Shown here piece by piece: positions 3,000 through 7,513 of a stretch of 57,038 nucleotides of DNA. The stretch is from an uncultured Verrucomicrobiota bacterium (lineage in GTDB: Bacteria; Verrucomicrobiota; Verrucomicrobiia; Opitutales; Intestinicryptomonadaceae): contig CASFWX010000035.1 of NCBI GenBank assembly GCA_949298545.1, positions 1 to 57,038 of the forward strand, read 5' to 3'. The translations under genes and the position numbers were made by a program. Position 1 is the stretch's first letter, and the number at the start of each line of letters is the position of its first letter. The notes below the pieces were generated by a model. The model did not search any database. It had not been told where the DNA came from and saw only the letters and a list, made by a program, of their open reading frames with translations.

Positions 3000-3175
3000 T
3001 TTAAATAAAAAATATTCGTTTTATAAATCCCAAATTAAATGGTTGCAAAATTTTGCAAAAGTTCTTTCTTGTAGGCGCAGTAGAGTGACCGGTTTTTCCG
3101 ATTTCGCACCGCATTCAAAAGAATGCCGCCCAATTGGATAAAAATGAATCAAATTTACTCGCCCAAGGAGATAAT

Positions 3176-4546
3176 ATGGCCAAGAAATCGCTGCTGCTTA
3201 TAATAGTACTAATAGTATGGTTCGCGGGCTATTTTATAGTCGGCAACCATTCGAAAATCCCGGAGGGGACACCCGTCCAAAAAGCCAAATACGCCCTCGA
3301 TGAGGCCGGCTGCATAATGTGCCATTCCAAAGACGCAAAAATGCCTTTCTACGGCAATATCCCCATCGTCGGCAGCGTGGTAAAAGCCGACATCAAAAAG
3401 GGATTGCGCGCCTTTGATATGACAAACGTCGTAAAGGCGATGGATCAAAACCTTCCGGCAAATGAGACTGCCTTGGCAAAAATCGAATACGCCATCGAAT
3501 CAGGAACAATGCCTCCTTTCAGATTTAAAATATTCCATTGGTCCTCAAATATGTCGGCTCAAGAAAAATCCGCCGTTGCCGACTGGATAAAAATCGAGCG
3601 CCAAAAGCTCAACGCAAATTCCGGGGTCGCTCCAAAATTTGCGAACGAACCTGTATGGCCGATTCCGAGCGAATTGAACGTTGACGAAAAGAAAGTCGAG
3701 CTTGGCTCCATTCTTTACCACCATAAAGCGCTTTCAGGCGACGGAACGGTCTCGTGCGCCACATGCCACCCGCTCGACAAGGCCGGCGCCGACGCCATGC
3801 AAACCTCAACCGGAATACGCGACCAAAAAGGCGATGTAAACGCGCCTACAGTGTATAACGCGGTGTTCAACGCAAAACAATTCTGGGACGGCAGGGCTGA
3901 CGATCTTCAATCCCAGGCTGGAGGCCCTCCGATGAACCCGGTGGAAATGGACGGCGGCTCTTGGACTGCCGTGGCAAAACGACTTGAACAAGATGCCGAA
4001 TTCTCAAAGGAATTTAAGAAGGTTTATCCTGACGGATTTACCGAAGCGAACATCACAGATGCCATAGCGGCATTCGAAAGCACTCTAATTACCCCCGACA
4101 GCAATTTCGACCTCTACCTTAAGGGCGACGAAGAAGCTCTGACTCCTCAGCAAAAAGACGGCTATGCTGTCTTTAAAAAAGCCCGTTGCTATGTCTGCCA
4201 TTCAGGACAAAATCTCGGCGGACAAACCTTCGAATATATGGGATTAAACTCCAACTACTTTGAAGACAGGGGCGATGTCGGAAAAATCAACGACAAAGGA
4301 CGCGCTTCTTTTACCGGCGACGAACGCGATATGCACAAGTTTAAAACTCCGACCCTGAGAAACGTCGCCTTGACTGCCCCATACTTCCATGATGGCTCGG
4401 CAACCACATTGAAACAGGCAGTAGAAGTCATGGCGAAATACCAGAGGGGCATTGAGCTTGACGACTACGAAATTGATTCTCTCGTAAAATTCCTGGAATC
4501 GCTCACAGGCAAGCTCAAAGGCAAAAAACTGGAAGTAAAAGAGTAG
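3176..4546 (+). CDS. Tri-heme cytochrome c peroxidase, membrane anchored
   Basis: 456 residues from the ATG at 3176, chosen because AAGGAG lies five bases upstream; an in-frame start at 3134 would add 14 residues before the membrane anchor. An N-terminal transmembrane helix (about 5-23) anchors the protein with the rest in the periplasm. An N-terminal heme-binding domain carries CIMCH (Cys46-His50). The di-heme peroxidase (MauG/CcpA) part carries CATCH (from Cys194) and CYVCH (from Cys338). Three CxxCH motifs with a membrane anchor match the E. coli YhjA/Ccp architecture, in which electrons from the quinol pool reduce hydrogen peroxide during anoxic growth. The gene is flanked by terminators on both sides and so is probably transcribed alone. 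I infer a role in peroxide respiration or detoxification. Confidence 0.88.
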   Translation: MAKKSLLLIIVLIVWFAGYFIVGNHSKIPEGTPVQKAKYALDEAGCIMCHSKDAKMPFYGNIPIVGSVVKADIKKGLRAFDMTNVVKAMDQNLPANETALAKIEYAIESGTMPPFRFKIFHWSSNMSAQEKSAVADWIKIERQKLNANSGVAPKFANEPVWPIPSELNVDEKKVELGSILYHHKALSGDGTVSCATCHPLDKAGADAMQTSTGIRDQKGDVNAPTVYNAVFNAKQFWDGRADDLQSQAGGPPMNPVEMDGGSWTAVAKRLEQDAEFSKEFKKVYPDGFTEANITDAIAAFESTLITPDSNFDLYLKGDEEALTPQQKDGYAVFKKARCYVCHSGQNLGGQTFEYMGLNSNYFEDRGDVGKINDKGRASFTGDERDMHKFKTPTLRNVALTAPYFHDGSATTLKQAVEVMAKYQRGIELDDYEIDSLVKFLESLTGKLKGKKLEVKE

Positions 4547-4562
4547 TTTAAAATAACCGATT

Positions 4563-4600
4563 AAAATCCCCGCCCTTAGCCGCGGGGATTTTGTATTTTT
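4563..4600 (+). terminator. Intrinsic terminator after the cytochrome c peroxidase gene
   Basis: A perfect 10-bp stem pairs AAAATCCCCG (4563-4572) with CGGGGATTTT (4583-4592) around a 10-base loop. It is followed by GTATTTTT. The T-tail ends only eight bases before the ATG of the thioesterase gene at 4609. Confidence 0.85.
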
Positions 4601-4608
4601 ATAAAAAA

Positions 4609-5352
4609 ATGGACGCTATATATCAGGCAATTTACCGGGTCAGGATTTCCGACGCAGGCCCGGACGGGAAAATAAAGATGCGCTCCATCATGCAGCTGAT
4701 GCAGGAAATCGCCACTGAACACGCCGAAAAAATCGGCGTCGGGTTCAACGACCTATCACCGCGCAAGCTCGGGTGGGCTCTCTCAAAAGCCGTTGTAAAG
4801 ATCGAAAAGCTCCCTTCCTGGGGAGAAAAGATTAAGCTTGCAACATGGGCTTCCGACAGGGAAAGGATCGCGACATACAGGGAGTTTATAGGCGAATCTC
4901 AAGACGGAATCCCATTATTCTCGGCGCGCTCGCAGTGGATACTTTTCAACACGCAGAAACGCCGCATAGCGCGAATGGACGAACTTGAAGACTGGCCGCG
5001 GATCGCCGGCAAATTCGCAAACGATGAAAGTTTTGAGGCGCGCCTTGAAAAACCCGAATCGGAGGATTTTTATGCGGAATGCTCGGCGATGCGCGACGAC
5101 ATAGACCTCAACGGCCACGTAAACAATACCGTATTCATGGCGTGGACCGCCGAAGCACTGCCGCAAGAATTCTCCAAGGACAAAACTCCCTCCAAAGTTG
5201 CGATAAATTTTCTCGAGGAGATTGCTCCCAAAACAAAAGTGAGATCCGTATTTCAAGCCGTTTCAAACAAGTCTCTACACTCAATAATAAGAGAGAGCGA
5301 CCAAAGGGAATGCGCGCGGGTCAATATAGAATGGGAAAGCATATTGTCTTGA
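4609..5352 (+). CDS. Acyl-ACP thioesterase family protein
   Basis: 247 residues from the ATG at 4609; a TTG at 4591 in the same frame sits inside the preceding terminator and is unlikely to be used. The protein has the double hot-dog layout of acyl-ACP thioesterases. The first hot-dog begins with YRVRISDAGPDGK and contains a QEIATEHAEKIG helix. The second carries the catalytic motif DIDLNGHVNN (Asp164 to Asn173; DxNxHVNN in the family), followed by an MAW...E segment. It would release free fatty acids from acyl carrier protein in the cytoplasm. There is no clear ribosome binding site because the leader is occupied by the terminator tail of the previous gene. The next gene begins about 30 bases later on the same strand. 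Confidence 0.8.
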   Translation: MDAIYQAIYRVRISDAGPDGKIKMRSIMQLMQEIATEHAEKIGVGFNDLSPRKLGWALSKAVVKIEKLPSWGEKIKLATWASDRERIATYREFIGESQDGIPLFSARSQWILFNTQKRRIARMDELEDWPRIAGKFANDESFEARLEKPESEDFYAECSAMRDDIDLNGHVNNTVFMAWTAEALPQEFSKDKTPSKVAINFLEEIAPKTKVRSVFQAVSNKSLHSIIRESDQRECARVNIEWESILS

Positions 5353-5385: not shown

Positions 5386-5925
5386 ATGACACTCTATCAG
5401 GCAAGCTATCTCTTTGCGGCGCTCTTATTGGCGGCAGGCATTCCATTTGCCGCATTTGCGGATTCCTTCAAGAAAAGCGCATTCGCCTTTTTGCGCAGTA
5501 CAAAAGCTGCCGTGGTGTTTTTTGGTGGAAGCGGTTTATGGTTTCTCTACATTTTATCCCAACTTGGAGAATCCGACTTCGGAAACATAAAGGGAGTTCT
5601 CATAGCCGTATTCGGCATAGCCGGCATCCTCGCGTTCTTCTTCCTTGACGATTTCTTGTCTGTAAGGGGCTTGGCGATTCTCACCTTGCTGCTCTGCCGC
5701 GAATTTCTCGATGCCGCATTTATGCAGGAACCTCAATCGCGCCTGCTTATGGTTTCCTACTCCTACGCCTTTGTCGTGGCGGCACTTTATCTCGGCGCGT
5801 TGCCGTATAGAATGCGGGACTTCTTTGAATATCTCTACGCAAAACCGGTTCGCGCAAGAATATTTGGCGCCATTCTATGCGCAATGGCGGCAAGCATTGT
5901 CGCGGCAAGCTTGTTTTATTTATGA
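5386..5925 (+). CDS. Unrecognised polytopic membrane protein
   Basis: 179 residues, very hydrophobic, with about five predicted membrane helices (near 5-25, 42-60, 69-87, 93-112, 125-143 and a last one at 157-178; the fourth and fifth may be one hairpin). Short charged loops such as PYRMRDFFEYLYAKPVRAR separate the last two helices and are positively charged, so that loop is probably cytoplasmic. I do not recognise a family. Its stop codon overlaps the ATG of the guanylate kinase fusion gene (ATGA at 5922-5925), so the two are co-translated. It lies 33 bases after the thioesterase gene, suggesting a three-gene unit. Confidence 0.65.
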   Translation: MTLYQASYLFAALLLAAGIPFAAFADSFKKSAFAFLRSTKAAVVFFGGSGLWFLYILSQLGESDFGNIKGVLIAVFGIAGILAFFFLDDFLSVRGLAILTLLLCREFLDAAFMQEPQSRLLMVSYSYAFVVAALYLGALPYRMRDFFEYLYAKPVRARIFGAILCAMAASIVAASLFYL

Positions 5926-7196
5926 AAAACGTGCTTTTGATAATTAGCGGCCCGGCAGGCAGCGGAAAAAATACCGTCGCCGAAAGGCTTATGGCGGAAT
6001 TCCCCAATGTCAAAAGAGTGGTCACCACCACCACGCGCCCGCCCCGCGGGAACGAGCGCAACGGGGTGGACTACCATTTCGTATCTACCGAAGAATTTGA
6101 AAGCGACATCGCCCTCGGGGATTTTTACGAGTACGCAAAAGTCCACGGGCGATACTACGGCACTTCAAAAAAGTCCGTTCTGGGCGATATAGCCCAGGGA
6201 ACAGACCTGATCCTCATAATTGATGTTCAAGGAGCAAAGACATGGCGCTCCATCGCCGCCGCAGATACCAGCATAGGCGATATCATGACGAGCGTGTTCA
6301 TACGCCCGAATTCCATAGACGAATTGCGCAAACGCCTCAAAGGCCGCGCAACTGAAACCGAGGACGAAATAGACACTCGCATGCGAACTGCCGTCGACGA
6401 GCTGAAAGAGGCGAAACATTTTGATAAAATTATAGACTCCGGAAGCAGGGATGAAGACTACGCCGCGCTGCGCAAAATATACCTCGAGGCAAAAAACAAT
6501 CCCGCAAGACAAGAATTGGCCCCAAGTCGAAACAGTCCAGTTGATGCGTGCATGCAAAAAGCGCGGGACGATATAAACATCCGCCCCGGGACTCCGGAGG
6601 ATTTTGAAGCGGTTTACCGAGACATGCTCTTTCAGTTTCCCGCCTCCGAATTGAAAGGCAAAGGCGATTTTATCCGGCTGTTCCGAGATGAAAAGTACAA
6701 TCTCGGAATAGCCTGCGATAAATCCGGGAACGCAAAGGCTTACTTTACGTGCTATGAAATTCCTCCCACTCAAACGGCCCTGCTCGACCATTTCGCGGTA
6801 TTTGGAAACTGCCAGGGCAAAGGCATCGGATCCGCCGTTTTGAAATGCATGAGAAAATATTTCTCAAATCTAAAGGGTCTAATACTTGAAGTGGAAAAGC
6901 CAAATCCCAAAGAGCCAAACACAATCCGCCGCATAGAGTTTTACAGAAGAAACGGCGCACAACTCTTAAATATCCCCTATCTCCTTCCGACTAAACACGA
7001 TTCCGCCCTGCCCATGGACATCATGTTCTTAAGCTGCGGAGACGAACTATCAAGCCTCCCTGAGCTACAAATAAAAAATTCCATAAAATATATTTTTGAA
7101 AACCTGCATGCCTCTTCTTTCGCGAATGCGAATGAAGTTTGGAAAGCGTTAAGAGACCTCTGGGGGGAAGAGCAAAAAATCTCCGCGCCTGATTAA
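5922..7196 (+). CDS. gmk: Guanylate kinase fused to a GNAT acetyltransferase
   Basis: 424 residues. The ATG at 5922 is chosen because it gives the ATGA overlap with the upstream gene and places the P-loop at the N-terminus. Residues 1 to about 190 are a guanylate kinase (GMP to GDP with ATP): a P-loop at 10-18 (GPAGSGKNT), TTTTRPPRGNERNGVDYHF for GMP binding, YYGTSK, LIIDVQGAK, and the C-terminal RxTETEDEIDTRM lid and helix region. The residue after the P-loop Lys is Asn rather than the usual Ser/Thr. Residues from about 210 to 400 form a GNAT N-acetyltransferase, with the acetyl-CoA pyrophosphate loop at QGKGIGSAV and an FYRRNGAQLL helix and strand. Guanylate kinase is normally a stand-alone enzyme of about 200 residues. 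The acetyltransferase substrate is unknown. Confidence 0.85.
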   Translation: MKNVLLIISGPAGSGKNTVAERLMAEFPNVKRVVTTTTRPPRGNERNGVDYHFVSTEEFESDIALGDFYEYAKVHGRYYGTSKKSVLGDIAQGTDLILIIDVQGAKTWRSIAAADTSIGDIMTSVFIRPNSIDELRKRLKGRATETEDEIDTRMRTAVDELKEAKHFDKIIDSGSRDEDYAALRKIYLEAKNNPARQELAPSRNSPVDACMQKARDDINIRPGTPEDFEAVYRDMLFQFPASELKGKGDFIRLFRDEKYNLGIACDKSGNAKAYFTCYEIPPTQTALLDHFAVFGNCQGKGIGSAVLKCMRKYFSNLKGLILEVEKPNPKEPNTIRRIEFYRRNGAQLLNIPYLLPTKHDSALPMDIMFLSCGDELSSLPELQIKNSIKYIFENLHASSFANANEVWKALRDLWGEEQKISAPD

Positions 7197-7249: not shown

Positions 7250-7513
7250 TTAAGAATTTGATGAACCGTCTTTCTTAGAGGTTTCAGAGGCAGAATCGAC
7301 CTTTGTCTCGGAAACTTTCTTTTCCTCGTCCTTCATAGCCTCCCGAATGTTTTCCTCAACTTCGTTAGTGGCCTTCTTAAATTCGCGTATGGATTTGCCT
7401 ACTCCGCGAGCGAGTTCAGGCAGGCGCTTGGCTCCAAACAGCAAAAGAACCACCAAAAGTATTACTATCCACTCCGATGTACCGGGCATTCCGAATGCAA
7501 AAATTTCGTTCAT
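7250..7513 (-). CDS. tatA: Sec-independent protein translocase TatA
   Basis: 87 residues with the TatA/E layout: a short periplasmic N-terminus, one transmembrane helix (about 14-25, WIVILLVVLLLFGAKRLPEL), the FGAKRLPELARGVGKSIREF hinge and amphipathic helix, and a charged C-terminal tail rich in Glu, Lys and Ser. TatA oligomers form the pore that moves folded proteins across the membrane when recruited by TatC. tatC is not adjacent here but lies at 43806-45218. tatA is the last gene of the minus-strand operon, 25 bases after the previous gene. A Tat substrate is encoded at 31555-32889. Confidence 0.9.
   Translation of the reverse strand: MNEIFAFGMPGTSEWIVILLVVLLLFGAKRLPELARGVGKSIREFKKATNEVEENIREAMKDEEKKVSETKVDSASETSKKDGSSNS

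Follow-up and report, generated by a model that had tools for sequence, protein, structure and literature searches.

Bacterial guanylate kinases (Gmk; TIGR03263/PF00625) are the closest described counterparts of the protein reported here. It shares with them the fold, the substrate-binding residues, the presence as a single copy and a score above the equivalog cut-off. It differs from them by an asparagine after the P-loop lysine, a trait of its clade, and by a C-terminal GNAT acetyltransferase domain, found in this genome only. It is usual to regard a serine or threonine at this P-loop position as required for Mg binding. The strict Walker A motif is not a defining feature of nucleoside-monophosphate (NMP) kinases. 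Adenylate kinase of E. coli (Adk), an active NMP kinase, likewise has a residue other than Ser/Thr after the lysine, followed by Thr (GKGT), but it belongs to another family and carries Gly, not Asn. For the C-terminal part, the nearest structure is that of a putative GNAT from Bacteroides thetaiotaomicron (3ey5).

The window, that is the whole stretch of 57,038 nucleotides analysed, contains at 5922-7196 (+ strand) a single open frame of 424 codons with no internal stop (Table 1). An in-frame ATG also lies upstream, at 5877; homologues begin at 5922, whose ATG shares bases with the TGA stop codon of the preceding gene (ATGA). The encoded protein has a guanylate kinase (GMK) domain, residues 1-190, followed by a GNAT acetyltransferase fold, at approximately 214-420. 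Both domains exceed curated cut-offs, and the one-frame fusion reported in the preliminary description is present in the assembly; its placing of the GNAT start near residue 210 and of the QGKGIGSAV loop was also correct.

Table 1. Coordinates of the fused gene and its syntenic flanks in the window.
Feature	Position	Strand	Basis
Acyl-ACP thioesterase gene, syntenic upstream flank	4591-5352	+	Pfam, synteny
Conserved gene for a membrane protein, immediately 5' of gmk in nearly all relatives, 4-base overlap with the gmk start	5386-5925	+	synteny
GMK domain, residues 1-190, P-loop GPAGSGKNT at 5949-5975	5922-6491	+	Pfam, NCBIfam, AF2
Linker, ~20-25 residues, A6 run 6491-6496 at its start	6492-6560	+	no counterpart in lone GMKs
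GNAT domain, with QGKGIG as its acetyl-CoA loop (Q/R-x-x-G-x-G) around residue 301	6561-7193	+	Pfam, AF2, Foldseek
TatA/B-family gene in convergent orientation; downstream flank, syntenic with relatives	7250-7513	-	Pfam, synteny

The kinase part is recognized by Pfam Guanylate_kin over residues 5-186 (131 bits) and by the NCBIfam guanylate kinase model TIGR03263, with 178.3 bits against an equivalog cut-off of 160.45. Its AF2 model has pLDDT block means of 86-98 across residues 1-190. We mapped the substrate residues onto the yeast GMK structure 1gky; their roles in GMP binding and in the LID are presumably those known from the yeast enzyme. R39, R42, Y51, E70, Y79, D101, R138, R142 and R153 are invariant in an alignment of 24 GMKs. 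Yeast Ser34 and Ser80 correspond to Thr35 and Thr81 in the window GMK, and both threonines are invariant in the same alignment. The host genome, a 112-contig assembly of 1.88 Mb that is 92% complete and free of contamination, was searched for a second gmk and none was found; the earlier supposition that this is the only copy is borne out at that completeness. The domain is very probably active, and would convert GMP and ATP to GDP and ADP.

In the P-loop of the window GMK, Asn17 directly follows Lys16, where the strict Walker A motif G-x4-GK-[ST] has Ser or Thr; the equivalent position in E. coli Adk is the Gly of GKGT. Asn17 is probably tolerated because the phosphate-binding Lys16 and the next residue, Thr18, are both kept. 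At the DNA level, a pattern encoding GP[STA]G-x-x-GKNT occurs in 16 of the 19 genomes of the family, and the motif is GPAGSGKNT in all 16 readable ones. As for the remaining three, gmk is cut at a contig end in one, the second (79% complete) yielded no gmk, and the third, G011, gave no candidate. The latter, a single contig of 2.3 Mb from the same genus, has no match to GMK, GNAT or the pattern, in contrast to the rest of the genus; this blank probably reflects unreadable sequence, not a true absence. In a 388-genome sample of the phylum that included no member of family f7, the pattern is confined to the genus of the window.

On this distribution, the asparagine is a clade trait, separate from the fusion and older than it, fixed in the lone GMKs of the family. 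Given that fixation, we reject the asparagine both as the mark of a dead kinase and as a fusion-linked neofunctionalisation. Its occurrence in a single-copy essential gene implies that the position tolerates change; with the residue fixed in the family's lone GMKs, the earlier proposal of an enzyme active despite its Asn gains support as probable.

Opitutales outside the family of the window have GKTT or GKST, with the exception of family f7. Its eleven single-copy GMKs carry Asp (5), Asn (4) or Thr (2) after the P-loop lysine, i.e. GKDT, GKNT or GKTT, and these enzymes pass the guanylate kinase cut-off. The set comprises loci L084-L092, L094 and L095, from genomes G024, G091, G101, G122, G134, G151, G159, G168, G176, G184 and G197. 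The position thus offers a natural series of Ser/Thr, Asn and Asp in single-copy, hence presumably active, kinases. We regard the P-loop variation as an independent finding, somewhat more general than the fusion. A tentative reading would unite the two: the sole GMK of two Opitutales families, with Asn or Asp for the Mg-binding Ser/Thr, might have a remodelled metal coordination, one member having become a stable bifunctional GNAT fusion.

The C-terminal domain matches Pfam Acetyltransf_1 (PF00583) over residues 232-342, with 26.6 bits against a cut-off of 20.7. Its QGKGIG conforms to the acetyl-CoA loop Q/R-x-x-G-x-G/A, and both glycines are invariant in GNAT homologues. The AF2 model of this part, built from its own alignment (pLDDT 89, pTM 0.87), adopts the GNAT fold, and 3ey5 is its best match both in Foldseek (E 2.8e-11) and in a sequence search of the PDB (E 0.003). 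The two have the fold and the acetyl-CoA loop in common; they differ in sequence (23% identity) and in the attachment of the window GNAT to a kinase. Its putative activity would be the transfer of an acetyl group to an amine.

This GNAT is present once in the host genome. Of the 18 other genomes of the family, 5 carry a relative of it as a lone gene; identity is 45-49% in four of them and 37% in the fifth. Outside the family such relatives are rare: apart from one alphaproteobacterium, the lone GNATs picked up by a contig scan were all from Opitutales. Several lone relatives adjoin dapA and the rest lie in different contexts; gmk was sought in their fetched flanks and not found. So scattered an occurrence marks the GNAT as an accessory gene.

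In relatives of the family, the gene order runs from the acyl-ACP thioesterase through the membrane-protein gene and gmk to the convergent tatA-like gene, and it is the same around the fused gene. Because this order holds on both sides, with both flanks colinear with relatives, a mis-joined, chimeric contig is very unlikely, and we rejected that explanation. Sixteen relatives of the same family have a lone GMK at this locus, of approximately 192 residues and with the C-terminal end KIYL-x-x-K. Queried with the whole protein, 54 relatives and a phylum-wide sample of 388 genomes yielded only one hit spanning both domains over the full length, in the window's own genome. Long frames in ten genomes had hinted at other GMK fusions, and were rejected as upstream out-of-gene read-through that adds no C-terminal domain. 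The fusion is known from one draft genome of 112 contigs, and a literature search for a GMK-GNAT fusion found no description.

With lone GMKs at the locus in relatives, GNATs separate elsewhere and no second two-domain match, the fusion looks recent and private, produced through loss of the gmk stop codon. Our preferred explanation, to which we assign a probability of roughly two thirds, is that a normal, active single-copy GMK gained a C-terminal GNAT in one lineage, the two domains being most likely independent. First, one of the family's accessory GNAT genes would have come to lie between gmk and convergent tatA; in-frame loss of the kinase's stop codon would have followed, leaving the spacer as a short linker. 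The GC3 of the linker, counted over 69 bases only, is 0.35, versus 0.61 in the kinase and 0.52 in the GNAT, and because of this low value we read it as probably the former spacer. An SD motif, looked at for a possible internal start at Met211, precedes only 11 of the 37 genes of the window. The domains would act independently of each other, with shared expression as the chief consequence. The locus would then be a clear recent snapshot of a gene fusion involving an essential enzyme.

Alternatively, gmk and the GNAT gene could be truly separate neighbours, joined by an assembly indel in the A6 run. The run sits exactly where the homology to lone GMKs ends, and the gain or loss of a single base there would separate the genes again. 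In the -1 frame the kinase would acquire the tail QSRKTRIGPKSKQSS and stop 15 codons on, at TGA 6542-6544, with a possible GNAT start at 6552; relatives, moreover, all have lone genes. Yet the GMK homology before the run and the GNAT homology after it share one frame. Short-read assemblies also seldom contain indels in A runs this short, an argument that bears on the window only if it was assembled from short reads. We consider an indel unlikely, but it is the chief weakness of the fusion reading.

The preliminary description had raised a tie between GTP supply and acetylation as one possibility, which is unsupported: the fusion occurs in one genome, and the GNAT is patchy and lone elsewhere. 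More broadly, a functional fusion would have the GNAT acetylate a target linked to guanine nucleotides, or acetylation regulate the kinase. Motif residues are indeed kept in both domains, but the GNAT is missing from most relatives, and where it does occur it adjoins dapA or other genes, never gmk, which makes a functional coupling quite improbable.

We find it hardly credible that one mRNA gives two products, the fusion and a GMK that ends, without the GNAT, in a basic tail of 15 residues, through a -1 frameshift at A AAA AAC (6491-6497) of the kind that dnaX undergoes at its own heptamer. The phase of the heptamer would suit such a shift, and the -1 frame does close after 15 codons, but in-phase slippery heptamers are common by chance in the window (3 AAAAAAC and 16 AAAAAAA in 17,246 codons) and no convincing stem lies immediately downstream.

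An Rfam scan of the whole window gave no match. At 3134-4546, the window encodes a di-haem cytochrome c peroxidase/MauG-like protein whose N-terminal domain is a haem-binding one; in some relatives, the position of this gene upstream of the thioesterase and gmk genes is conserved. Elsewhere in the same genome (G000, contig C67, locus L083, positions 145-2139, + strand), an AroA EPSP synthase (273 bits, Pfam) and Cmk (151 bits) share one frame; two nucleoside-monophosphate kinases of this genome, Gmk and Cmk, are thus found in fused genes.
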